Below, piece after piece: positions 51,059 through 64,000 of a stretch of DNA of 64,000 nt. Positions within the stretch are counted from its first letter, which is position 1; the number at the start of each line of letters is the position of its first letter. The DNA lies in NCBI RefSeq assembly GCF_019856455.1, contig NZ_CP082205.1, forward strand, positions 1,860,001 to 1,924,000. Reading direction: 5' to 3'. Source of the DNA: Streptococcus suis (GTDB lineage: Bacteria > Bacillota > Bacilli > Lactobacillales > Streptococcaceae). A program made the position numbers and the translations under genes. The notes beneath the pieces are model-generated. The model made no database searches and had not been told where the DNA came from. It was given only the letters and a program-made list of their open reading frames with translations.

Positions 51059-52123
51059 TTAATAGAGGTGTTTCACTTCGGATGTCAGTACTTCTATCAC
51101 GCCCTCTGTCAAGCGTCTAGGACCACGCACCGCCCTGACTCCCAAGTCCATCATGCGCGCTCTCGGCAAAACATTATCGGAAAACTGAGCAAGCAATTCC
51201 ACCTGCATGAGTTTCTTTTCTGTCGGAATATCTGATTCTCCATGATTTTCCAAGTTTGCTTCTAAGACACGACAAACATAACGAATGGCCTGTACCGGCG
51301 CTGTAACATAGATGGCTACGATGTCCCCGGCTTGAATAGTTGATTTTTGTGGCCAATAGACTACCTTATTTTCCGCAAATTCGGTATCGATATCATAGAC
51401 CTTGGGATTGGCTGGAATAACCCAGTAATCAGGCCCTTGCGCCGCCTTGTAGGATTTCGGTCCCACCAAATAACGACTTTTCTCAAGGAGGGCAAACACC
51501 GTCTGGTCCTCTAACGTATCATCCAGCAAGACTGACACCCAAGACTTCTTAGACATGTGATAGGCTGGGAAAATGCCCGACTGACTTAGTAGCTCTGCTA
51601 TTTCCCGAACATCGACCTTGAGATTGACAATCTCCACCTCTTCTTGAGAACCGCTCCCATCCAGCTTGTCCCTCGGAATCTGACTGACCAGGGCATACCA
51701 CTTATTATTGGAGGGATGGCGAAAAGCACCATAGGTCGGCAACTTGGCAAAGGGATAGTCAGGAAGGTCGCCCCACTTCTCCTTGATGAGCTGGGCTATA
51801 CGGTTGCTTTGGTCTTTGGAAAATGGCAGAGCGATACAGCAGGCCTCCTCTACTCGATCCAAAATGGACTGATAAGCCTCACGTACCTGCCCCACAAAAG
51901 CCCCAGCTGGCGCAGTCACCAGATGGGCGGTATAGGCCTCCTCCATCTCACAATCCCAAACATAGGATGACAGCTGACCAGCCTCATCCACCTCCACCAC
52001 CGCCTCAAACTGCCCCTCCATGAAGACCTCACGGTAGATGTAACGATTGTCTGAGAAGATAAAACCGAAAGGGATGAGGGAGGGGAGGTGGATTTTATAA
52101 GAATTAACTGAAGACATAGGCAT
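51059..52123 (-). CDS. MmcQ/YjbR domain protein fused to a C-terminal EVE domain
   Basis: About 354 residues from ATG 52123 (AGAGAG upstream). Residues about 15-210 look like MmcQ/YjbR (FSDNRYIYREVF, FRHPSNNKWYALV, YHMSKKSWVSVLLDD). Residues about 225-350 look like an EVE/PUA-like domain (DYWVIPANPKVYDID, VVYWPQ, AGDIVAIYVT, QVELL). EVE domains read modified bases and often occur beside restriction systems. Here it ends an island containing a cytosine-5 methyltransferase. It may be a sensor of modified DNA, or an ordinary housekeeping YjbR variant; the fusion is what I can see. Confidence 0.75.
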   Translation of the reverse strand: MPMSSVNSYKIHLPSLIPFGFIFSDNRYIYREVFMEGQFEAVVEVDEAGQLSSYVWDCEMEEAYTAHLVTAPAGAFVGQVREAYQSILDRVEEACCIALPFSKDQSNRIAQLIKEKWGDLPDYPFAKLPTYGAFRHPSNNKWYALVSQIPRDKLDGSGSQEEVEIVNLKVDVREIAELLSQSGIFPAYHMSKKSWVSVLLDDTLEDQTVFALLEKSRYLVGPKSYKAAQGPDYWVIPANPKVYDIDTEFAENKVVYWPQKSTIQAGDIVAIYVTAPVQAIRYVCRVLEANLENHGESDIPTEKKLMQVELLAQFSDNVLPRARMMDLGVRAVRGPRRLTEGVIEVLTSEVKHLY

Positions 52124-52159
52124 AGTTCTCTCTTGAAACAAAATCAATAAAATCTAAAA

Positions 52160-52785
52160 TTAAAGTTTATCAACCAAATGATATTCAACAATATCTTTGG
52201 TTTTCCGAATTACTTTTCTAAATTCTAGTTGTTTTAAGGGATTAGAAATAATAGTAAGCTTAGAGGAACTTTCTAAATTTGAAACGACAGAAAGAAAGTA
52301 ATTCGACTTATAAAATTCAGCTTGTTGATACTCTTTTAAAGTTAGTCGAATATCCCCGTGTTTTCCCCTAATTCCCTTTACCTCAGCTAAATAATTATTC
52401 TTTCCTACACTGAGCTGAAAATCATATCCATCACCATACAAACGAGCATCCTCTATAGTACCACTTTGGAAAACGGACTCTTTTTGATAATTGTTCATAA
52501 AGTACAATTCAGCTTCTAGTCCTGTTTCTTGTAATCTTTTGAATTTTGACTTCACTATAGGACTTTCAATTAATGTTATTTCCTTTACATTATGAACTTT
52601 CTGAAGGTACAACTTAACGATGTTGGCATAATTTACAACATCTTCATTTCCAAACAAGCTATCAATTAGTTCTTTTCTAGGGCGATAATCTTCCATTCTT
52701 TGATAAATTCATTATCGAATTTAGCTAGACCATAGCCTAATAGATTTAATAGTTCGTAATATTTGTGACGGTTTCTATTTGACAT
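52160..52785 (-). pseudogene. Internally deleted DUF3883 gene (paralogue of 60007-60765)
   Basis: ATG 52785 starts a peptide (KYYELLNLLGYGLAKFDNEFIKE) that matches the N-terminus of the intact DUF3883 protein. About 50 residues are then missing and the frame changes. The C-terminal 178 residues remain open from 52696 (RKELIDSLFG.., KRLQETGLEAE, GTIEDARLYGDGYDF, EVKGIRGKHGDIRLTLKEY). The DUF3883 core with the Asp and the EVK of a PD-(D/E)xK-like nuclease fold is complete, so a shortened protein could still be made. It lies 4 bases behind the receiver gene. Confidence 0.75.
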
Positions 52786-52789
52786 ATCC

Positions 52790-53731
52790 TTACCCCCACT
52801 TATGCAATGTTTCTTCAAAAAGATTATTATATCTATTTATATTCCCCCTGATTTCATTACACTTAACCGAATCATACGTTATTATTCTGCCATCTTGATT
52901 TTCAATTTTAAATCCATGCACTCCATCAGTTTTTGCATGAGCTAATAAATTCCTTTCCTTTAATATATTTGAACGGTAATTGTCCACAAAGTTGTCGTAT
53001 CTTTCATCATACTTGTCATCATTTGAAGATTTTAACATCTTAAATATTTTATTTACTACCCTAGCAAGTTTGTCTGAATCCATAACATAAGCCCGTTCTT
53101 GTTCTAAAACCGCCTTCAAATACCCCTCAGAAGCACTAGTCGAATTTTGATGAACTTTACTTATTTTATTATAAAAATCTCTCCCTTGTTTTTCTACATA
53201 CCTATCTAAACTATTTTTTTCGTCTTCAGTTGCTAAATCAATATATTTTGAAATAATTAATTTCATCTTTTGATCAAAAACACTGACATTATTCATCAAT
53301 AAACCACGTATACTTAGAACATTTTCTGTTTTTAAAATATTTTTGTCAATAATTTTTTTAGCCTTAGGGATAAATTCGTAATTCTCACGACTACAAACAT
53401 ATGTCCCCTCAATAAACTTTTTAGATAATTGATCCTCAATATCATTTTTCTGAACTGAGCAAAACAATATATCTGACAAAATATTTTGTCTTCTAATGAC
53501 TTCTATAGCTGAAGTTCCTTTTATTGAACCAAGTAAATTTAAATCTATGAAAATGACATCAAAATGCTTCTCATGTAATAACTTGACTAGCTGTTCGGTA
53601 TTCACAGTATCAAATCTTGTAACCTTTAATAAAAAATTCCTATCCTTTACATATCTTTCTAGTTTACGATAAATATTATTATACCAAGTTGTCGTATCCT
53701 CAAACCATAAAATATTTAAATCAATACTCAT
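52790..53731 (-). CDS. Receiver-domain protein with helical C-terminal domain, partner of the double-GHKL protein
   Basis: 313 residues. The N-terminal third is a response-regulator receiver: acidic pair Glu11-Asp12, phosphoacceptor Asp63 in FDVIFIDLNLLG and a Ser in ILFCSVQ. The rest (about 125-313) is mainly helical and ends in KERNLLAHAKTDG, reminiscent of RNase-like/HEPN helical domains with an RxxxxH-like element (R-N-L-L-A-H). There is no DNA-binding output domain. Its start overlaps the GHKL gene by 11 bases, so the two are translationally coupled. The HEPN idea is tentative; the receiver call is firm. Confidence 0.75.
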   Translation of the reverse strand: MSIDLNILWFEDTTTWYNNIYRKLERYVKDRNFLLKVTRFDTVNTEQLVKLLHEKHFDVIFIDLNLLGSIKGTSAIEVIRRQNILSDILFCSVQKNDIEDQLSKKFIEGTYVCSRENYEFIPKAKKIIDKNILKTENVLSIRGLLMNNVSVFDQKMKLIISKYIDLATEDEKNSLDRYVEKQGRDFYNKISKVHQNSTSASEGYLKAVLEQERAYVMDSDKLARVVNKIFKMLKSSNDDKYDERYDNFVDNYRSNILKERNLLAHAKTDGVHGFKIENQDGRIITYDSVKCNEIRGNINRYNNLFEETLHKWG

Positions 53732-55919
53732 TTAAAAAACCCAATTCTAAACAGAATCCCCTCTCATTTTTTTCATGTAATTTTATATAACCTCCATTCT
53801 CTTCCATAACACGCTTAACATGAGATAAGCCGACCCCGGTACTTTCTGTTGTTGTATAGCCTAATTCAAATATTCTATCCGGGGTAATTATGGCGGAAGA
53901 GAGCCCCTCCCCATCATCTTTAAATTCCATAACCGTATAAATTCCATTTGTGTAAAAATCTAAATCTATATTACTTGCACCTGCCTTGAAAGAATTATTT
54001 ACTAGGTTATCAACAACTAGCCCTAGCTCAGCAGTATTAAATTTTATTTTGTTTGTTAAAATCTTTTCAGGCTGGTATTTAAATTTTATTTTACTATATC
54101 GATCTTTGGTAGGCTTAAGTAAATCTTTTATATATTGCTCAATAAACTCTTGTAGTATAAAAGACTGAGTTTGATCAGATAATCGAAAATCTGCTGAGAA
54201 TGCTAAATCATAAATTTTCTTAATTTTCTGAGCAGAAATAGTGATCCCATATATATCCTCATCCACCTCAGCAATAATGTCTGTTGCTTGATACTCATTT
54301 AATATCTGACTAATTGAATTAATTGATAGTTCAATACTATCAGACTCTGTATACATAGCATGTAGAGCTTCCGTCGCATTCTCAAATTTTGGATTTGTCA
54401 ATTTTCTTAAAAATAAAGCCTGCTTACTTGTAATCTTCAATTCTTGTTCTGTAACCAACCGCTTTTCTCGCTCAACTTCTTTTGCGACTTCTGCCTGCCT
54501 CTGCTTTTGTTGAGCCTCAATCTTTTCTCGCTCAGCCGTCTTACGAGCAAGTTCTGCCTCCCTACGTTCTTCTTCTGCAATCTTTTTCGCTTCTTCTTCT
54601 TGTATTCTTTTTTCCTCAAGAGCTTTTTTTTCTTTTCTCCTAATTTCATCAACTTCTTTACGAACAACTGAACCTATATTTGCACGCTCACTAATCAACT
54701 TATTAACAATAGGTTTCAACAAGTCAATTAACAAAGTAATACGTTCATCGTTTCCCGAGAGACCTTCTCGATTAGTTGTCGAAATATCTTCCAATCTATC
54801 ATGATCCAAAACGTCAAATGAAATTTCCCCCTCTATGTAAGCACCAAATGCTTGAGTATTATTTAACAAGGGCATAAAATCTGAAACAGCTAATTTATCA
54901 CGAACATATAATCTCAATTGATTAGCTTTATAAACTTGATTCCTTATAAATCTGTCCTTTGTATCCGTTCCAGTATTTTCAAGAGCTTCAGACATATTGA
55001 TTGTACTATGGATACCAATCCATCCTGTTAGCTCGTAAGTAATTTCTTCTAGCTCTCCATCAATATTCAGAAATTCCTCTTTACCAGTTAAACTAATTCT
55101 TGATATCTCAGAAGGATATATTCTTTTTACCTGACGCAGTTTATTTGACACTTCCTCTAAATCCGCACTTATCTTTACCGAATCATTTAGCAGATCCATA
55201 TTGACCACTGTTTTATCTGTTTGAAAAAAGGCATAAAAATTTTTAAATCCAATGACCTTAGAAACTTTTGAAAACTCTATAGCCTGATTTACATCGGTCC
55301 TATACGCTACTTCAATGTCTGCCCCAAGATTATCCAAAAGATAGTAGTTTGCCAAAGTCATCTTCAAAGACTCTAGTTTCCCTTCAGCAAAACCCGCTAA
55401 ATTGACACCAACAGACTTGATTAGCGTACCGCTCTCAATTTCATCCCAGATTTTTGTATTCTCAATATGTACATCATCGATAGGTACTCGCACTAGTTCA
55501 GGTATGTCACTGTCTAATGCGTCAGTTGAATCTAACATCCATGCACTTGCAATGCCATCTTTCTTTGAGACTATATAATATTTTTTAGAAAGAAATAACG
55601 TTGCTAATTTTCCGATTCCTTTCCTCCCCTTTGTTTTTTCTGATAAATCTTCACTTGATAAACGTTTATTCCGACCAATCAGAGCATATTTTGTAGATAA
55701 ATCATCATAGTCCATTCCACTACCGTTATCAATAATTTCTAAGATAGAATTTTTTTTATCAATAGATTCAATATAGAGATTTACCTTAGTAGCACCTGCA
55801 TCTAGTCCATTTGCAATTAATTCAGATATAGCACTCCATCTATTGGTATACATTTGCTTTCCCAATAAATTTAGTGCATAATATGAAAAATTAAACTGAA
55901 TTTTATCCTTTTCAATCAT
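53721..55919 (-). CDS. Double-GHKL ATPase: MutL/Hsp90-like N-terminus, coiled coil, histidine-kinase-like C-terminus
   Basis: 732 residues. GHKL domain 1: ELIANGLDAGAT (Glu33, Asn37), IIDNGSGM near 64 and TKGRKGIGKLATL near 95, as in MutL/MORC-type ATPases. A middle domain follows, then a strongly charged coiled coil (about 415-500, Glu/Lys/Arg repeats). The C-terminal part is kinase-like: EALHAMYTES with His520 as a possible phosphoacceptor, N box LGLVVDNLVNNSFKAGAS, FKDDGEGLS and the lid TTESTGVGLSHVKRVMEENGG. Prokaryotic MORC-like GHKL proteins are known from restriction neighbourhoods. It follows the methyltransferase by 10 bases and overlaps the receiver gene. Confidence 0.85.
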   Translation of the reverse strand: MIEKDKIQFNFSYYALNLLGKQMYTNRWSAISELIANGLDAGATKVNLYIESIDKKNSILEIIDNGSGMDYDDLSTKYALIGRNKRLSSEDLSEKTKGRKGIGKLATLFLSKKYYIVSKKDGIASAWMLDSTDALDSDIPELVRVPIDDVHIENTKIWDEIESGTLIKSVGVNLAGFAEGKLESLKMTLANYYLLDNLGADIEVAYRTDVNQAIEFSKVSKVIGFKNFYAFFQTDKTVVNMDLLNDSVKISADLEEVSNKLRQVKRIYPSEISRISLTGKEEFLNIDGELEEITYELTGWIGIHSTINMSEALENTGTDTKDRFIRNQVYKANQLRLYVRDKLAVSDFMPLLNNTQAFGAYIEGEISFDVLDHDRLEDISTTNREGLSGNDERITLLIDLLKPIVNKLISERANIGSVVRKEVDEIRRKEKKALEEKRIQEEEAKKIAEEERREAELARKTAEREKIEAQQKQRQAEVAKEVEREKRLVTEQELKITSKQALFLRKLTNPKFENATEALHAMYTESDSIELSINSISQILNEYQATDIIAEVDEDIYGITISAQKIKKIYDLAFSADFRLSDQTQSFILQEFIEQYIKDLLKPTKDRYSKIKFKYQPEKILTNKIKFNTAELGLVVDNLVNNSFKAGASNIDLDFYTNGIYTVMEFKDDGEGLSSAIITPDRIFELGYTTTESTGVGLSHVKRVMEENGGYIKLHEKNERGFCLELGFLNEY

Positions 55920-55929
55920 AACAATTCCT

Positions 55930-57093
55930 TTATAAATTATTCTCTCTAAAAAAATCAGCTATTCTATTTGCTAAATATATACTTAGAATTGGAGGGACTG
56001 CATTTCCAATCTGTGTATTCACTGCTTCAAACCCTCCAATAAAAACATAGTCATCAGGAAAAGATTGAATCCTAGCTCCCTCTCGTGCGGTTAGAGCACG
56101 ATTTTGACTGGGATGAATACATCTCAACGATGATGGGGTTGATAAATTATTAGTGATTGTGGTTGAAGGTCTGTCCCACCACAGTCGTCCATATGTATTA
56201 CTATACCCCGAAGTAAGAAACAATTCTTTGGGTAATTTTCCTTCTTCAACCATACTGTTTATATCATCTTTTCCTTGTCCCTCTTTTAGAGCTTCCATGA
56301 TTTTAATCATTCTATCACCATGTCGTCTACTAGCATGATTTTTTAATTCTATCGTATTTCCTCTCATTAATTGCTGATAAACCGTTACGGGTTCTCCTTG
56401 ATAGCTATTCATAGTCTCATTATTTCCTAAAAGAGGTAAATCACTTATCGCTTCTCTTAATGTTATAGGATGTTCATTAGCTATACTATTTGGGAATCGC
56501 CACTCTACATCTAATTGTAAATCATTTCTCACACCAATAATAAAGACACGTTCTCTATTTTGAGGAACTCCGAAATCTTTAGCATTTAGTACCTGAATAT
56601 GTAGGTTGTAACCATTCGCATCATTAAAGTCAGAAAAATCTTGAAAGCTCTCTTTTACATCTTCCAAAACAGGCTTTTTATCATCATTTTTCATTGTCAA
56701 TAAGCCTAACACATTTTCAAAAACAAACATCTTTGGTTGCAAAAATGATAGCAGTCTTCTATACTCCTTATACATTTTTGCCCTATTATCAAATTGTCTC
56801 TTTCCAACGGTACTAAATGATTGACATGGAGGTCCTCCAATCACCAAGTCAATATCTTTTATATTTACTCCTATATTAGTCAAGTAATCAATATTAAGAT
56901 CCGCTATATCTCCTTCTATCATTGGGATATCAGGATAATTCTGCCTAAATGCTTCAGCTGCATTCTTATCAAATTCGTTGGCAAAATTTATTTTAAAATC
57001 ATCTCTCCTAACAAAAGAATTGTCAACAATTCTTTTTTGAAAACCAAATGTTAGTCCTCCCGCACCGGAGAATAAATCTACAACATTAATCAT
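55930..57093 (-). CDS. DNA (cytosine-5-)-methyltransferase
   Basis: 387 residues, all core motifs in order: I DLFSGAGGLTFGF, IV GGPPCQSFS with the catalytic Cys near 90, VI FENV, VIII QNRERVFIIG, the variable target-recognition region (about 215-310), IX and X (REGARIQSFPDDY..IGNAVPP). It makes 5-methylcytosine; the recognition sequence cannot be predicted. It is the first gene of the second island module, behind an extended -10 promoter. No conventional partner endonuclease is adjacent. Confidence 0.96.
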   Translation of the reverse strand: MINVVDLFSGAGGLTFGFQKRIVDNSFVRRDDFKINFANEFDKNAAEAFRQNYPDIPMIEGDIADLNIDYLTNIGVNIKDIDLVIGGPPCQSFSTVGKRQFDNRAKMYKEYRRLLSFLQPKMFVFENVLGLLTMKNDDKKPVLEDVKESFQDFSDFNDANGYNLHIQVLNAKDFGVPQNRERVFIIGVRNDLQLDVEWRFPNSIANEHPITLREAISDLPLLGNNETMNSYQGEPVTVYQQLMRGNTIELKNHASRRHGDRMIKIMEALKEGQGKDDINSMVEEGKLPKELFLTSGYSNTYGRLWWDRPSTTITNNLSTPSSLRCIHPSQNRALTAREGARIQSFPDDYVFIGGFEAVNTQIGNAVPPILSIYLANRIADFFRENNL

Positions 57094-57166
57094 AAAATAT
57101 CCTTACTTTTACAGTGTAAATAACTTGTTTATTGTCTTATCAAAGCATAAAACAACCCCTATTTTA

Positions 57167-57175
57167 GATTATACC
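57167..57175 (-). promoter_or_regulatory. Extended -10 promoter of island module B
   Basis: TGGTATAAT on the minus strand, five bases after the 57181-57200 hairpin: the identical arrangement stands at 63494-63527. Confidence 0.65.
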
Positions 57176-57180
57176 ACAAA

Positions 57181-57200
57181 ACCCAGCCATTTTAGGCTGG
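57181..57200 (-). terminator. Duplicated valS-type terminator
   Basis: CCCAGCC, loop, GGCTGGG then TTTT, matching the valS terminator at 63508-63527 in stem and flanks. Confidence 0.75.
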
Positions 57201-57220
57201 GCATTTATCATATTCTACCT

Positions 57221-57294
57221 ACTTAACCAGTTTTTTCATTTCTTCAATCCGTCCTACTATCACATCATATTTATTGTCATCAATCTCGAAATTT
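57221..57294 (-). pseudogene. valS: Fragment of a diverged valS 3' end inside the island
   Basis: Directly behind the helicase stop codon the minus strand reads NKYDVIVGRIEEMKKLVK-stop. The intact valS ends [21 protein letters not shown], and 17 bases (GAAATGAAAAAACTGGT) are identical in a row. The fragment is followed by the same terminator and promoter as the real valS end. It has no start and is a duplication scar. Confidence 0.8.
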
Positions 57295-59994
57295 TTATTC
57301 TTCATTAAATTTTTCAAGCAACTCCTCAGCGATAGCTTGACTTTCCAACCTCAGCAAACTAGCTTGGTCATCCGAATGATATGTAAAAGGGGATAAATTG
57401 CCATACCAAACGAGATTACTATCTAAGATAACTGCGGTCGTACCAATCCTTTCTGGTACAAGCTTCACCTTTACATTGTCACTGTTTAACCCCATTAGCC
57501 ACTCACTTAACTTATGATTTTTGGAAACATGAATAACTACTTGTTTTCCTTGTAACTGCCCCAATAGTTCTTGAAACTTACTAGAAGTAAGCGTATGTAA
57601 TTGTAAATATGCTGTTGAGCAAGTGTTCCGCAAATCCTCTCTAAATTTCTCTTCGTAATCCCTACCACTATATAATACTTGGGTTTGCTCCTTTTCTCCA
57701 ACTTGGTATGCCATTTTTCGATAGGCTATCTGACGTTTCTGATACATTCTTTCAAGATAAGGAACGTGTATATCTAGATAATCGACTATTCTCACCTCAG
57801 ATTTACCTCGATAGGGACGGTGAAGCCGCCCTGCATACTGTATGAGGTTATTTTTCCAAGACAAAGGAGCTGCCAAAATTAGTGTATCCAACTTTGGCAT
57901 ATCGAAGCCCTCTCCAATAAATTTTCCTGTTGAAATGAGGACAAATGGACTATTCTCATCTAGCTCACTGATTCTTTTCAGGAGTTCTTTCGTATCTCTT
58001 CTTTTACTCGCTCCACTTAGACAAAAAATATTGGGCATTTCTTTTTCAATAAGTAGTTTTTCCAATAGTTCTATATGTTCCCGTCGATTGACTAAGACAA
58101 GTATATTTCGCTTTTCTTGATATAGTTTGAAAATATCTTGCACAATCAAAGTATTGCGATGTAAATCTTTGGCAAGCCAATCATTAAGGGCTGCAAAGTT
58201 CGTACTATTCGACTGTTCCAAGTCCAATTTCCCAAAAGATGTTAGACGGAGTAGTAACCTCTTTTTAAAATCGTATTGCCCTGATTGAGCAGTATGTAAA
58301 ATTGGACCAATCCTTTGAAAAACAATTGGTTGGTGTCCGTTTTTTCGTTCTGGCGTTGCTGTTAAGCCATATAGATATTGACCAGCAAATTGAGCAACTA
58401 CCCTCTCAAACTGCAAGGCTGTCACATGATGACATTCATCCACAATCATCATATCGTAATCCGACAAAAAGTCGGAAATAGTGTCCAATTGGAAGAGAGA
58501 TTGAATCATAACCACATCCACCAGTTTGCTCCTCCACTTTTTAGAAGCCCCGTATTGTCCGATGTGCCCTATTACTTTTACAAGCCCTGAAGGAGTATAG
58601 CGAACCGCCTCTTTCTCTTCAATCTCTAAAAATTCACCCAACCTTTCCAACCACTGCTCCATCAGTTGACGATTATGAACTAAGATAAGCGTTCGGCATT
58701 TCCTTTGTGCAATCAAGGCGGCCCCCAGAACTGTCTTCCCGAAACCTGTTTCAGCACATAGCAAGCCATTCTCACTAGCTAATAAATCTGCCAAAGCAAT
58801 CTCCTGCTCAAAACGTAAGATCCCTTTGAAAGAAATCTGAATCGGAGATAGAATGTTGCGATTATCCGTAACAGTTACTGTTTCAAATATTTCTTGTAAG
58901 CTTGCAAGTATTCCTCTTGGAAGATGCAATGCTTCATCCGTTTCTTCAAATAAATAGATGCGTTCTGGAGTCTGATAAGTTGGCTGTCTAGTCGCTTGTT
59001 TTAAATAAAATTCAGGATTAGAAAAAGATGCCAGCTTTCTCAATAAATAATTTGTCTTCGAAGAAATAGTCCTCTTCTCAACTCGAATAACGTTTGATAA
59101 GCTACAATCTAATACTGTATCATCTACAGAATCCGAAAACTCCTGTCCTAAGAAATCTAGTATTTTCTTCTGTTCAATTTTCTTAATCTGTTGAAGATAA
59201 CTCCATTGTTCCAAATAGGGCTGAAAATGCCTATCAACAAAAACGGTTCTTCCCTTCTTGAAAGCTTCCCCTTGTAAGGGTAGTGCGATAAGATTGCCAA
59301 ATCCTCCCTTGGGCAGAATATCTTGATTTGGAAACATACGGTCAAATGAAGAAAAGCGAATATCTTTTGACTCCTGCATAGCCAATTCCAGCAATCTTTT
59401 TCCAACATTTCTCGCCTGCTGACAAGCAATTTCTTCCTCGAAGAAAAACCAGAGATGAGCACCATTGCCCGAACGAGAGATTTCGATATGCCCCTCAAAA
59501 CCATGTTGTTCTGCTGTATCTCTTAGAATGGAGACCTCTTCTCTCCAATTATTTTTATCAAAATCAATCGCCAAAAAGGAACACGTGTCTGATAAACTCA
59601 TTGGAAAAATGCCAATACTGATTTCGCCACGTAGGTGAGCCAACAATACCTGTTTGGTCAAGGGTTGACAAGTTCTCTTTTCAACAGGAAGTTTTTTCCA
59701 ACCATAGTTGTAAGAAGGAAAATAGTTGATTTTTCCATTTTCATCAATATAAGACTTCGCATAAACATCTATACGTCCCTTAAATAGGCTGAACAGAATG
59801 GAGAGTTTCTCATCGGTACTTAGTTGATGTTTTTGTTCTTCAAAGTAATCATACAAATGCTTATCACTTATCAGAAACTGCTGATTGTTATCTTGAAATT
59901 GCATTAAATTCAGAATCTTATCGGTAGCATAATAGGGAAAACGAGCAAGATGCTTTGCAACCTTACCCGTTAATTTTTCATAATAATAAGACAT
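57295..59994 (-). CDS. TOTE-type primase fused to SF2 (DEAD/DEAH) helicase
   Basis: 899 residues. The N-terminal half has an archaeo-eukaryotic primase-like domain of the TOTE conflict-system type (about 110-270): GIFPMSLSDTCSFLAIDFD with its acidic pair, then HIEISRSGNGAHLWFFFE and LPKGGFGNLIALPLQG. The C-terminal half is a superfamily 2 helicase: AETGFGKTVLGAALIA (near 415), the DECHH box (near 517), LTATPERK and motif VI QYAGRLHRPYRG. It probably unwinds or primes on foreign DNA as part of defence. It ends against the valS fragment and follows the intact DUF3883 gene by 12 bases. Confidence 0.88.
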   Translation of the reverse strand: MSYYYEKLTGKVAKHLARFPYYATDKILNLMQFQDNNQQFLISDKHLYDYFEEQKHQLSTDEKLSILFSLFKGRIDVYAKSYIDENGKINYFPSYNYGWKKLPVEKRTCQPLTKQVLLAHLRGEISIGIFPMSLSDTCSFLAIDFDKNNWREEVSILRDTAEQHGFEGHIEISRSGNGAHLWFFFEEEIACQQARNVGKRLLELAMQESKDIRFSSFDRMFPNQDILPKGGFGNLIALPLQGEAFKKGRTVFVDRHFQPYLEQWSYLQQIKKIEQKKILDFLGQEFSDSVDDTVLDCSLSNVIRVEKRTISSKTNYLLRKLASFSNPEFYLKQATRQPTYQTPERIYLFEETDEALHLPRGILASLQEIFETVTVTDNRNILSPIQISFKGILRFEQEIALADLLASENGLLCAETGFGKTVLGAALIAQRKCRTLILVHNRQLMEQWLERLGEFLEIEEKEAVRYTPSGLVKVIGHIGQYGASKKWRSKLVDVVMIQSLFQLDTISDFLSDYDMMIVDECHHVTALQFERVVAQFAGQYLYGLTATPERKNGHQPIVFQRIGPILHTAQSGQYDFKKRLLLRLTSFGKLDLEQSNSTNFAALNDWLAKDLHRNTLIVQDIFKLYQEKRNILVLVNRREHIELLEKLLIEKEMPNIFCLSGASKRRDTKELLKRISELDENSPFVLISTGKFIGEGFDMPKLDTLILAAPLSWKNNLIQYAGRLHRPYRGKSEVRIVDYLDIHVPYLERMYQKRQIAYRKMAYQVGEKEQTQVLYSGRDYEEKFREDLRNTCSTAYLQLHTLTSSKFQELLGQLQGKQVVIHVSKNHKLSEWLMGLNSDNVKVKLVPERIGTTAVILDSNLVWYGNLSPFTYHSDDQASLLRLESQAIAEELLEKFNEE

Positions 59995-60006
59995 GTGAGT
60001 TCCTCT

Positions 60007-60765
60007 TTAATAAATATCCTCAAGAGCATGATATTCCTTTACTGCTTTTGACTGAACTATTTTTTCTCTAAAGTTCAGCTCTTTCAACGGATTTTCGATT
60101 GTCACAATTCTAGGAACATTGTCCAGATTTAACACTAAAGACAAGACAAATTGATTGGGAAACTCTTTTGCTTTAAAAAACTCTTTCTCAGTCATTCTAA
60201 AACGCCCTCTGTTTTCTCGGATTCCTTTTACTTCGGATAAAAAGATCTTGTTCGTCGTCGTGACTTGAAAATCATACCCATCCCCATACAATCTGGCATC
60301 CTCAATACTCCCTGCTTTAAACAGAGGCACTGACTGAAAATGTTGTAAAAAGTATTGCTCCGCTTCTAAACCCGTTTCCTGCAATTTCCGAAATCGTGTT
60401 TGAACAATCGGTCTTTGAACTACTAAAATATCCGCCAAGAACCCCTCTTCTTTCAAACTCATTTTCAAAATATCTGCAAATTCCTTTACATCTGCCGTGC
60501 CAAATAAGCTATCTATAAACAATTTCCGATGCTCATAAACATCTTTTTTCTGCCACCAGCCTCGACGACCATTTTCAAAATAAGGATCAAACAAATCCAT
60601 ACGTTGCTTGATAACACCTGTTGTTTCCGCCAAACCAATCTGAACACAATACTGATAGAAATCCGCCTTTGTTTCGAAACCAAATTGCTTGATTAACTGG
60701 GTATCAAATTTAGCCAGACCATAGCCAATTAGATTTAATAAATGATAATATTTGTGTTTACTCAT
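60007..60765 (-). CDS. DUF3883 domain protein (intact copy)
   Basis: 252 residues. An N-terminal helical part (KYYHLLNLIGYGLAKFD..) is followed by the DUF3883 domain (about 120-235): RKLQETGLEAEQYF, GSIEDARLYGDGYDFQV and FLSEVKGIRENRGRFRMTEKEF. The E..D..EVK spacing fits a PD-(D/E)xK-type nuclease-like fold. DUF3883 often accompanies restriction helicases. It shares its architecture with the deleted copy at 52160-52785. In operon with the helicase. Confidence 0.85.
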   Translation of the reverse strand: MSKHKYYHLLNLIGYGLAKFDTQLIKQFGFETKADFYQYCVQIGLAETTGVIKQRMDLFDPYFENGRRGWWQKKDVYEHRKLFIDSLFGTADVKEFADILKMSLKEEGFLADILVVQRPIVQTRFRKLQETGLEAEQYFLQHFQSVPLFKAGSIEDARLYGDGYDFQVTTTNKIFLSEVKGIRENRGRFRMTEKEFFKAKEFPNQFVLSLVLNLDNVPRIVTIENPLKELNFREKIVQSKAVKEYHALEDIY

Positions 60766-60836: not shown

Positions 60837-61637
60837 TTATTCAACAACCCCCAACTCCTCATACATTCTCTCACTTGATAAATCATTCTGACCATTCAAG
60901 AGGAGATTTTCAAAAAAGGCAGTTAAAAAGTCTGAGCGTTTATTGACTAACTTAGCATTGTCAAGTACAAGGGCATCTCGAAAATATTTGGCATGTTTTT
61001 GAAAAGGCTCATTATCAATCTCAAAACCAAGTGAGCGAAGGTATTTGATGAGAAATACGGTGATTGTTCGAGTGTTCCCTTCTCGAAATGGATGGATTTG
61101 CCAGATGCCTGAGATAAATGATTGGATATGAGCAACAATAGCTTTTTTATCTAATCCACTATATGAAAAATCTCTTTCTTGTTGGAAATCGTAATCCAAA
61201 GTGGCGGCGATTAATGGAAAATCTGAATAAATCACAGTATCACCCTTTAAGACGGATTCATTTTTTGTAACGTTAACCGTTCGATATTCACCTACTGGAA
61301 TACCACTGTCAAAAACACCTTGAAAAAGCTCTTTGTGGATATGTAAGAGGGTGGTTGGTCGAAGGCTAAAACCATTTTGAGAAAGCATTTCAACAATTCG
61401 GAGAGAGACAATATCCGCCTCTTGCGTACTGGCGTCAGTTGACTGGTGGTATTTCGTAATCTCCTCGTACACCTGCTCATAGGTGTACTCTCCATGAGCT
61501 TGCCTATCAGCCAACTCCTCCATATAAACAGACGGAGTCAACCCATCCACTTTTTGAAGACCAAAACCAGTTTCCCAGAGTTCTTGCTTGGTTTCATAAG
61601 AAAGATTAGGATTATCAATATTGTAGGTTGGTTGCAT
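60837..61637 (-). CDS. Fic family protein
   Basis: 266 residues. The Fic active site is IHPFREGNTRT with His182, matching HxFx(D/E)GNxR. Upstream is FQGVFDSGIPVGEYRTVNV, typical of the family. Fic enzymes usually add AMP to proteins and can act as toxins. I see no clear inhibitory (S/T)xxxE(G/N) helix at either end and no separate antitoxin gene next to it, so how it is held in check is open. ATG 61637 with GAAAGGA. Confidence 0.9.
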   Translation of the reverse strand: MQPTYNIDNPNLSYETKQELWETGFGLQKVDGLTPSVYMEELADRQAHGEYTYEQVYEEITKYHQSTDASTQEADIVSLRIVEMLSQNGFSLRPTTLLHIHKELFQGVFDSGIPVGEYRTVNVTKNESVLKGDTVIYSDFPLIAATLDYDFQQERDFSYSGLDKKAIVAHIQSFISGIWQIHPFREGNTRTITVFLIKYLRSLGFEIDNEPFQKHAKYFRDALVLDNAKLVNKRSDFLTAFFENLLLNGQNDLSSERMYEELGVVE

Positions 61638-61666: not shown

Positions 61667-63469
61667 CTATCCTATTTTACGATAACTGTTTTCCCTACCT
61701 ATTTTTTCACATTCAATCTCACCATCAGTAACTAGTTTATTGACTATCTTTCTGATTGTTTCTTTTGACATCTTTAAACTAACCTTGTCCCCTATTGCTT
61801 TTATAGTATACCATTTTCCACTATTCAATATGTCAATAATAGCAATTTCATTCTGAGACCTATTTTTACTAATTTTTAATTCAATCGGTAGTATCGAGCA
61901 TTTATAACCTAGATTTAATATGTTGTCATAAATCTGAGAGAGATTGATCATGGAGAATACTGGTAAAAATTTATCAAATTTTTCTTTATATCTTTTATCG
62001 ATAACTCCAAAAACAACTTCTATTTCATTATTTTCAATAAAACTAGTTCCGAACTTCGCTTGAACCTTTTTTTCTATATGTTTTATATAATCATTGTCAT
62101 TTTTTAATAGCTGCGCAGAAACCAATCCCTGAGCAAATAGATGGCTCAAAGAGGAAGACGAACCTCCTTTTTTTACATGGATAAACTTCCTATCTCTAGT
62201 TATAATATCCGCTGGTTCAATCTTACTTTTTCCCCAACTAGGTGCCTGATAATTCTGTTTATCAAATGATTGATAGTCGCTAGGTTTAGTTTTTGCAAAC
62301 TCTTCATTATACTTCGCCTCATTCCAATTTATCTCACAAGCAATTGGTTCAATTGTAGACCTAGGGATGCTATAAATTTTCTGCAAGATACTAGTATAAT
62401 AATCACTCTCAATTTTGAACCATTCTCCGTTATTTAAAAAATAACGTTCGTCTTCATATTCAGTTTCAAATAACAAGCAGTTGTATACTTTGTCAATCTT
62501 TTCAGACTTTCCGGTCTTATTATTCCAAAAATATAATGAACTGTTATTTAACTTGGAAGCAATCTCATTCTCAATCATTGGCTCCAAATATTCCAAAAAT
62601 AATTCTGTCGGAATATCATCATAAAAATTATTATAATTAGCTCTTATTTTCATTCCAGAAATAAAATAACCGTCTACTACGCTCAAATCAATTAGTTTAT
62701 TAGATCCAATTGATATTTTTTCAATATTTTTCTCTCGAATGTTAACTATCAATTGTTTATCTAAAGCTAATTTAACACTATCTTCCTTTACCGGTTGAAT
62801 AAAGTCAATCCACTCAAATCCTTTCTCTTTGTACTGCTCACCCTGATAAAAGTTGAGGATTTCTTTTAACACTTTAGAAACAGCAGTGTTTGCTTTAACT
62901 GAAATTTGTAGAGCATCCGAGCCATGAATATTATTAAAACTTGTATTTGAACTAGCTTTGCCTGATATTGACTTTATTATCTCAGAGTCAGTTTTTATAT
63001 CCAAAAAATTTTGAGAAACATAATTGAAGGACTGTCTTTGTGTATCAATATAATCTGTAGAAATATTTAACGTATTTATGCTTTTGATATTATTTTCTGA
63101 AATTAGATTAATTGCTGTTTTTAACCCAAAATTTTTAACTATTGAAGAACTTTTAAGCATTGTTCTACCATAACCATATAGGATACTAAAAATCTTTTTC
63201 TGATACTTCAACATAAGCAAAGCTTTATTAGATTTATTTTTATAATCCTCTTCACTTATTGTGGATGTAGTAAATTTATTCAATTCCTCAATCCATTCAA
63301 CAGGAGAATCCGTAGTATTAGCTATATAAATTCTACCTTCTTCTATTCCTGCACCCTCCGTCGTATCAACAATAAAATAATCTTTTTTATCCTGAAATTC
63401 ATCCTTTAAACATTCTTCAAATGATTCCTTGTTATGCAAAACTATATTGTACTTCTGAAAATTACTCAC
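61667..63469 (-). CDS. DUF6119/TIGR04141-like sporadically distributed defence protein with winged-helix tail
   Basis: 600 residues, AT-rich. FIVDTTEGAGIEEGRIYIANT, FYQGEQYKEKGFEWIDFI, CEINWNEAKYNEEFAK and the block RDRKFIHVKKGGSSSSLSHLFAQGLVSAQLL recall the DUF6119 (sporadically distributed TIGR04141) family, whose HVK..SS..SHLF segment is its most conserved part. The last 80 residues look like a winged helix (AIIDILNSGKWYTIKAIGDKV..TIRKIVNKLVTDGEIE). The biochemical role is unknown. GTG 63469 start with AGGAGG 8 bases upstream. First gene of module A. Confidence 0.75.
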   Translation of the reverse strand: MSNFQKYNIVLHNKESFEECLKDEFQDKKDYFIVDTTEGAGIEEGRIYIANTTDSPVEWIEELNKFTTSTISEEDYKNKSNKALLMLKYQKKIFSILYGYGRTMLKSSSIVKNFGLKTAINLISENNIKSINTLNISTDYIDTQRQSFNYVSQNFLDIKTDSEIIKSISGKASSNTSFNNIHGSDALQISVKANTAVSKVLKEILNFYQGEQYKEKGFEWIDFIQPVKEDSVKLALDKQLIVNIREKNIEKISIGSNKLIDLSVVDGYFISGMKIRANYNNFYDDIPTELFLEYLEPMIENEIASKLNNSSLYFWNNKTGKSEKIDKVYNCLLFETEYEDERYFLNNGEWFKIESDYYTSILQKIYSIPRSTIEPIACEINWNEAKYNEEFAKTKPSDYQSFDKQNYQAPSWGKSKIEPADIITRDRKFIHVKKGGSSSSLSHLFAQGLVSAQLLKNDNDYIKHIEKKVQAKFGTSFIENNEIEVVFGVIDKRYKEKFDKFLPVFSMINLSQIYDNILNLGYKCSILPIELKISKNRSQNEIAIIDILNSGKWYTIKAIGDKVSLKMSKETIRKIVNKLVTDGEIECEKIGRENSYRKIG

Positions 63470-63493: not shown

Positions 63494-63502
63494 ATTATAC
63501 CA
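63494..63502 (-). promoter_or_regulatory. Extended -10 promoter of island module A
   Basis: TGGTATAAT on the minus strand just behind the valS terminator. Confidence 0.65.
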
Positions 63503-63507
63503 CAAAA

Positions 63508-63527
63508 CCCAGCCTTTTAAGGCTGGG
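63508..63527 (-). terminator. Terminator of valS
   Basis: CCCAGCC, loop, GGCTGGG then TTTT on the minus strand. It is separated from the valS stop codon by the 63540-63643 repeat. Confidence 0.8.
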
Positions 63528-63539
63528 CATTTGTTTAAT

Positions 63540-63643: not shown

Positions 63644-64000
63644 ACCAGTTTTTTCATTTCTGCGATACGTTCCTGTGTCGCATCATATTTTGCTTGGTAG
63701 TCGGCTTGTTTTTCTTTTTCTTTTTCAACGACCTCTGGTTTGGCGTTTGCGATGAAGCGTTCGTTGCTGAGTTTTTTACCGACCATGTCTAGTTCTTTCT
63801 GCCATTTGGCGAGTTCTTTGTCCAGACGAGCCAACTCTTCTTCGACGTTGAGGAGGTCGGCTAGTGGCAAGAAGATTTCAGCACCGGTGATAACGGCTGA
63901 CATGGCTAGTTCTGGTGCAGCAATGCTTGAGCTGATTTCCAACTGTTCTGGGTTGGTAAAGCGTCGGATGTAGTTTTCATTTGCCTTGAAGAAGGTTTCA
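63640..64000 (-). CDS. valS: Valyl-tRNA synthetase, C-terminal part, cut by window edge
   Basis: The last 120 residues: [70 protein letters not shown] and the end MKKLV. This is the typical ValRS C-terminal coiled coil. The rest lies outside the window. It marks the core-genome border of the island. Confidence 0.96.

Follow-up and report, generated by a model that had tools for sequence, protein, structure and literature searches.

We find that a 64,000-nucleotide window of Streptococcus suis (contig NZ_CP082205.1, positions 1,860,001 to 1,924,000) carries a three-gene cassette that recurs as a unit among its relatives: a 5-methylcytosine (5mC) DNA methylase, a double GHKL protein joining a MutL/paraMORC-like ATPase to a histidine kinase, and a receiver (REC) protein whose output domain is most likely a HEPN RNase. 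We give about even chances to the reading that this cassette is a restriction-like alarm, in which methylase and ATPase would sense, a phosphorelay would carry the signal to the HEPN RNase, and the infected cell would be halted. The TOTE primase-helicase and DUF3883 genes alongside, which the original prediction had counted into the same restriction system, are most likely neighbours and no part of the kinase cassette.

An ATPase profile was used to gather the loci, and members of this set in turn supplied the sequences for the receiver and kinase profiles. Among 98 loci with an ATPase open reading frame (ORF), 38 carry both a receiver and a methylase, 36 a methylase without a receiver, and 24 neither. 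These 38 REC-bearing loci correspond to 25 non-redundant ones, one per genome, since L120-L128 are L002-L010 fetched again, and two of these genomes also contribute L011 and L012. The methylase adjoins in 38/38 REC-bearing loci, which bears out the proposal that the GHKL kinase and the receiver form a cognate pair tied to a 5mC methylase. A kinase profile built from 21 members matches all 38 receiver loci versus one of the 60 ATPase loci without a receiver, and this lone positive (L026) lies at a contig end. The ORF adjoining the ATPase in L031 was considered as a receiver, is not one, and was left out. The recurring unit is 5mC methylase, ATPase-histidine kinase and receiver-HEPN protein.

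Beyond these three genes, no neighbour family occurs in more than 8 of the 25 loci. Within 6 kb (flank lengths differ and some contigs are short), valS was found in 8 loci, all from Streptococcus, a second C5-methylase-like ORF in 7 (L013, L017, L027, L028, L120, L123, L128), TOTE or a related helicase in 5, Fic in 5 and DUF3883 in none. A cognate DNA endonuclease does not recur as a neighbour in the 25 loci, although nucleases were not scanned systematically there and an unlinked one is possible. Where the kinase half is missing, the C-termini of the ATPase proteins are TIR-like in six of eight scanned cases, all below the Pfam cut-off. L030-L032, L034, L036 and L038 fuse the same N-terminal ATPase to a TIR-like domain, and no receiver was found alongside. 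Because the kinase half tracks the receiver and TIR-like C-termini occur elsewhere, the ATPase and methylase are the constant part of the system and its output is exchangeable.

A natural swap in genome G109 (locus L120) separates these parts. Its methylase and ATPase half are 99% and 100% identical to those of the window, whereas its kinase, receiver and HEPN-like domains are only 24%, 16% and 15% identical. When window positions 52106-60005 are compared with L120, DNA identity is 97.6% between the TOTE start and about residue 430 of the double GHKL protein; it breaks (blastn) at window position 54628, within the charged linker, and returns only in the gene that lies past the island. The kinase and the receiver-HEPN protein were therefore replaced together in G109 under an unchanged methylase and ATPase. 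Co-divergence follows the same division: with the ATPase distance removed, kinase and receiver distances correlate strongly over 21 diverged loci (r 0.89, p 0.0001) and within type-B kinases, defined below, alone (r 0.80, p 0.0001), while kinase and methylase are uncorrelated (r 0.08, p 0.18). For ATPase and methylase, the correlation seen over all loci (r 0.47, p 0.0001) disappears when type B is taken alone (r 0.13, p 0.21).

Both halves of the window's double GHKL protein retain intact ATP-binding boxes, and the HATPase_c_3 and HATPase_c families are both present in 25 of 25 proteins (the window's and 24 homologues). In the ATPase half, the N, G1 and G2 boxes are kept in 36 aligned relatives with a receiver. 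The relatives split into type-A and type-B kinases, the window's being of type B. The profile made from 15 type-B kinase halves finds sensor kinases of known structure, with matches across the DHp and CA domains (3a0r at 2e-13, positions 17-224 of 227), and in the 3a0r alignment the query histidine falls on the H-box histidine of that kinase. Invariant in these 15 halves are H520, both N-box asparagines, one G1 glycine and two G2 glycines. Judged by sequence, the C-terminal half is a real histidine kinase. The type-B H-box histidine is preceded by leucine, another hydrophobic residue or threonine, and the G1 box is complete in the window's protein and in most relatives, with altered versions in L021, L025 and L033. 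In type A, the H-box "HEL" is present and the DxGxG G1 box absent. We note that type-A loci (L002-L012, L014) lack this box in the kinase and the beta-5 lysine in the receiver, with the His and Asp kept; we read this pair as a putatively co-degenerate or altered relay.

In the receiver, the N-terminal part fits the fold of response regulators, and a structure search with the full-length model returned receivers. Residues E11, D12, D63 and S92 are invariant across 18 aligned sequences, and the usual lysine is Arg115. Given the invariant His520, the conserved Asp63 and the match to solved kinases, the relay from His520 to Asp63 that had been proposed from the window appears credible.

The original prediction also gave the receiver a helical output domain; this domain is helical in the model, and we find that it is most likely a HEPN RNase, an identity that the prediction had not seen; its RNase activity is putative. 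The motif RNxx[AS]H, which has the Rx4-6H form with a polar residue after the arginine expected of HEPN proteins, occurs in 27/27 receiver ORFs (269-351 amino acids (aa)) versus 7 of 1039 other ORFs, the 27 excluding L023 and L024, whose 74-aa receivers are cut by contig ends. In the AlphaFold2 model of the C-terminal domain (pLDDT, the per-residue confidence score, 83.8), the Rx4H motif sits where a long helix ends. Of the six top-ranked VIA-align entries for this domain, five are HEPN proteins, two identified by title and three which we take to be such, and the relatives' C-terminal domains give weak HEPN matches in Pfam, below cut-off. Foldseek on the C-terminal domain returned nothing at E <= 0.001, and the A3 profile searched against PDB sequences gave no HEPN protein, the top entries being a designed protein and receivers. 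A receiver profile run over 398 Bacillota genomes had seven matches, namely the window's own receiver and six without the motif, four of which look by eye like ordinary response regulators; this control speaks neither for nor against orphan receiver-HEPN genes.

The below-cut-off HEPN assignment weighs in favour of another explanation, in which the pair is a regulatory two-component system controlling the expression or activity of the methylase and restriction genes and the helical C-terminal domain either lacks catalytic activity or serves to bind proteins. Such regulation has been proposed in print for the HEF_HK pair (PMC8011034). Against it, family scans of the window and its homologues detected no DNA-binding domain in the receiver, no extra gene recurs that could be regulated besides the methylase (nucleases, as said, were not scanned systematically), and RNxx[AS]H stays invariant in 11 compared loci where the rest of the HEPN-like domain is only 15-22% identical to that of the window. 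We consider the regulatory explanation unlikely.

The mechanism that we propose for the alarm would run as follows. The methylase would mark the cell's own DNA, and the ATPase half may sense DNA without this mark. The kinase half would then phosphorylate the receiver (H520 to Asp63), the phosphorylated receiver would switch on the putative HEPN RNase, and the RNase would halt the infected cell, an abortive outcome in which the foreign DNA itself would not be cut. REC domains more often than not activate when phosphorylated, and we lean modestly towards activation over restraint of the RNase, although the present data fit either polarity. With the polarity reversed, in an explanation that overlaps ours, phosphorylation by the kinase would hold the HEPN RNase silent until a loss of ATPase or methylase function freed it, as in an addiction or guard module. 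The methylase linkage would fit post-segregational killing, and MNT-HEPN pairs in which modification silences the HEPN toxin have been described (7ae6); we regard this version as somewhat unlikely.

Several parts of this arrangement are already known: paraMORC ATPases since 2008, a paraMORC-kinase/regulator pair with 5mC methylases since 2021, and Detocs. The GHKL ATPases of restriction-modification (R-M) systems described as paraMORC include the TIR-fused paraMORC4 (Iyer et al. 2008, PMC2292703). Like these, the window's protein has a MutL-like ATPase with intact GHKL motifs beside a 5mC methylase, and TIR-fused versions exist in both; unlike them, a kinase half and a receiver-HEPN partner here replace the in-cis effector. 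Bellieny-Rabelo et al. 2021 (PMC8011034) describe the two-component-like HEF_HK/Response_reg_2 pair beside 5mC methylases and report Firmicutes members with a HATPase_c_3, kinase-like region and HATPase_c architecture; the words HEPN and RNase are absent from the main text. The window shares with this pair the HATPase_c_3 and HATPase_c domains, the adjacent response regulator and the 5mC methylase, but its proteins match neither PF19191 nor PF19192. PF19191 is absent from the families listed for the window and 24 homologues, and PF19192 was found neither in the window (E 0.01), nor in 21 sequences (E 0.1), nor in the window's own genome. A PF19192 search of 149 Bacillota genomes and 20 genomes reached via the loci also gave nothing, in a set where the positive control was likewise silent; elsewhere, the model was found in 3 of 274 genomes as a positive control. 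These three PF19192 receivers, gammaproteobacterial Response_reg_2 proteins of L217, L218 and L219, have 555-617 aa and lack RNxx[AS]H, unlike the shorter, motif-bearing kind of the window. They extend several hundred residues past the receiver model and have another output. Since neither family matches, we class the window's genes, on their sequences, as a two-component pair that is linked to a paraMORC and whose family lies outside PF19191 and PF19192.

The Detocs effector carries a REC domain, and Detocs resembles the cassette in using two-component signalling to an effector in defence. Unlike in Detocs, sensing here would fall to an ATPase linked with a methylase, and a predicted HEPN RNase is the effector. 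A description of Detocs as a family of three genes names an ATP-degrading PNP as its best-known effector (PMC11249213); family scans found the PNP family absent from the receiver and its homologues, a comparison with the best-described form of the Detocs effector only. In its working principle, Detocs comes closest to the cassette, which by analogy may be a relay of the Detocs type added to the recognition part of a restriction system. The CnuA protein of Type I-B CoCoNuT and the Schlafen-kinase fusions of BREX loci are similar in that REC or kinase domains are wired to predicted RNases or cell-death parts; they differ in using other enzymes, and their parts as described include no GHKL ATPase-methylase pair. 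BbrUII/HgiDII (NF050001) shares an N-terminal ATPase, but the ATPase half scores 138.9 bits, far below the family cut-off of 550, with the best stretch covering residues 9-167 only. PADLOC called no system on the cassette: the methylase is a generic MTase_II only, the ATPase half gives REase_II (71.7 bits) and MzaB (30.5 bits), and the receiver has no match. As far as we searched the open-access literature, supplements being outside this scope, the HEPN output, the effector swap and the cassette boundary are new.

That boundary lies in the 201-nucleotide gap between TOTE and methylase, in which stand a copy of the valS 3' end, a terminator and a following TATAAT-like sequence. The copy resembles the end of valS at 83% over 48 columns (63644-63690) and 95% over 39 nucleotides (63494-63532). 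Of nine relatives fetched, seven (L121-L127) have the kinase cassette directly after valS, while L120 has valS-Fic-TOTE ahead of it; in L124 and L127, Fic-TOTE comes after the receiver, the reverse of the window's order. TOTE was not seen in L122, L123, L125, L126 and L128, and L121 stops at the contig edge after Fic. Among 197 Streptococcus genomes, 26 have TOTE, 8 the ATPase-kinase and 4 both, so that 22 of the 26 TOTE-bearing genomes lack the ATPase-kinase. The 25 other REC-bearing loci have TOTE beside 3, all in Streptococcus, with only a related helicase in L023 and L025, no full TOTE outside Streptococcus, and DUF3883 beside none. The upstream partner of TOTE itself alternates between Fic and DUF3883, with NOV upstream of TOTE in L094, L101, L118 and L119. 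A search with DUF3883, described as a predicted restriction endonuclease domain (PMC3710099), gave nothing useful among PDB sequences; the DUF3883 gene after the receiver is shortened, and in another frame the beginning of a full-length copy can still be read.

Some observations pull the other way. The genes of both cassettes all lie in one co-directional run; TOTE adjoins the cassette in the window, L120, L124 and L127; the TOTE-methylase-ATPase block is intact in both the window and G109; the two cassettes occur together in 4 genomes, against about 1 expected from 26x8/197; and the other helicases of L023 and L025 lie upstream of the methylase. A single restriction system in which the phosphorelay drives a helicase/nuclease arm would explain these, but we judge it very unlikely in view of the valS-end copy and terminator-like hairpin, the varying order and absence of TOTE, and the lack of DUF3883. 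Because of the intervening valS-end copy and terminator, the cassettes found apart or in either order, and the DUF3883 remnant, TOTE, DUF3883 and Fic most likely make up another defence cassette, stacked with the first at this valS site. The refuting condition that the original prediction had set thus speaks for the methylase and against the helicase. TOTE decay is common, with in-frame stops in at least 7 of the 26 TOTE-bearing Streptococcus genomes (listed loci L101, L105, L110, L111, L114, L115, L118, L119).

The genes of the window are present as originally listed, in the minus-strand order DUF6119, Fic, DUF3883, TOTE primase-helicase, 5mC methylase, double GHKL protein, receiver and shortened DUF3883, flanked by valS and a YjbR-domain gene (Table 1). 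The DUF6119/TIGR04141 protein has a C-terminal winged-helix-like region (Mnd1 HTH match, residues 550-596).

Table 1. Positions of the cassette and its neighbours in the window
Feature	Position	Strand	Basis
C5-cytosine DNA methyltransferase, 387 aa	55930..57093	-	PF00145 231.6 bits; TIGR00675 above cut-off
N-terminal MutL/paraMORC-like GHKL ATPase half, residues 1-410 of 732 aa	54690..55919	-	HATPase_c_3 97.3 bits
Charged, coiled-coil-like linker, residues 411-499	54423..54689	-	Sequence
C-terminal histidine-kinase half (DHp+CA), residues 500-732	53721..54422	-	HATPase_c 68.2 bits
His520, predicted phospho-donor	54360..54362	-	Invariant in 15/15 aligned type-B kinase halves
REC domain, residues 1-135	53327..53731	-	Family match and conserved residues
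Asp63, predicted phospho-acceptor	53543..53545	-	Receiver alignment
C-terminal helical domain of receiver, predicted HEPN RNase	52790..53326	-	AlphaFold2 model, VIA-align, weak Pfam matches
R260-N-L-L-A-H265 (Rx4H motif)	52937..52954	-	27/27 receiver ORFs; place in model
Second copy of valS 3' end, terminator and TATAAT-like sequence	57168..57272	-	Similarity to valS end
Intrinsic-terminator-like hairpin upstream of methylase	57181..57202	-	Twin at 63507-63528
TOTE primase-helicase	57295..59994	-	PF22548 275.8 bits
DUF3883/NOV_C protein, full length, TOTE-cassette partner	60007..60765	-	PF13020 50.6 bits
Fic protein, TOTE-cassette neighbour	60837..61637	-	PF02661 47.7 bits; PADLOC PDC-S72 254 bits
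DUF6119/TIGR04141 protein	61667..63469	-	PF19614 387 bits; TIGR04141 378 bits
Shortened second DUF3883 gene, remnant	52160..52696	-	PF13020 53.2 bits
Remains of the start of that second DUF3883 gene, other frame	52697..52785	-	Three-frame translation; blastn to full-length copy

Some but not all relatives lie in restriction islands, since PADLOC identified four of eight large neighbours as R-M proteins and matched nothing in the other four. Among the R-M neighbours, L016 has a type III methylase and a restriction subunit, L018 an AlwI-type endonuclease and L025 a type IV-like PLD-helicase; Pfam identifies two of the negatives, as a purine-synthesis enzyme in L014 and an S-layer protein in L015. 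In L018, from one Bacillota metagenome-assembled genome, the AlwI-type gene (L018:6971-8815) overlaps the end of the receiver gene. The kinase had no match in plasmids or phages and the type-A receiver none in plasmids, and 80 viral-contig loci obtained with the ATPase profile yielded no receiver. In L136, a contig from a viral collection (L136:2021-6918), the ATPase and the kinase are encoded by two ORFs, a 494-aa ORF on the opposite strand lies between these, and a receiver carrying RNNLAH comes next.

In sum, the valS-side island can stack independent defence cassettes, and gene neighbours there are therefore not to be read as one system. The cassette provides a concrete predicted output for two-component pairs beside 5mC methylases, which have been known since 2021 without an assigned effector, and the G109 swap, by separating recogniser from alarm, offers a clean test. 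We hold with roughly balanced confidence that these genes represent restriction-like immunity without restriction, in which a methylase and a MutL-like ATPase would tell self from foreign, a His-Asp relay would inform a HEPN RNase, and the alarm half would be a plug-in that is swapped whole or replaced by an in-cis TIR-like effector. Such a system would join restriction-style self marking to RNase immunity via a phosphorelay.
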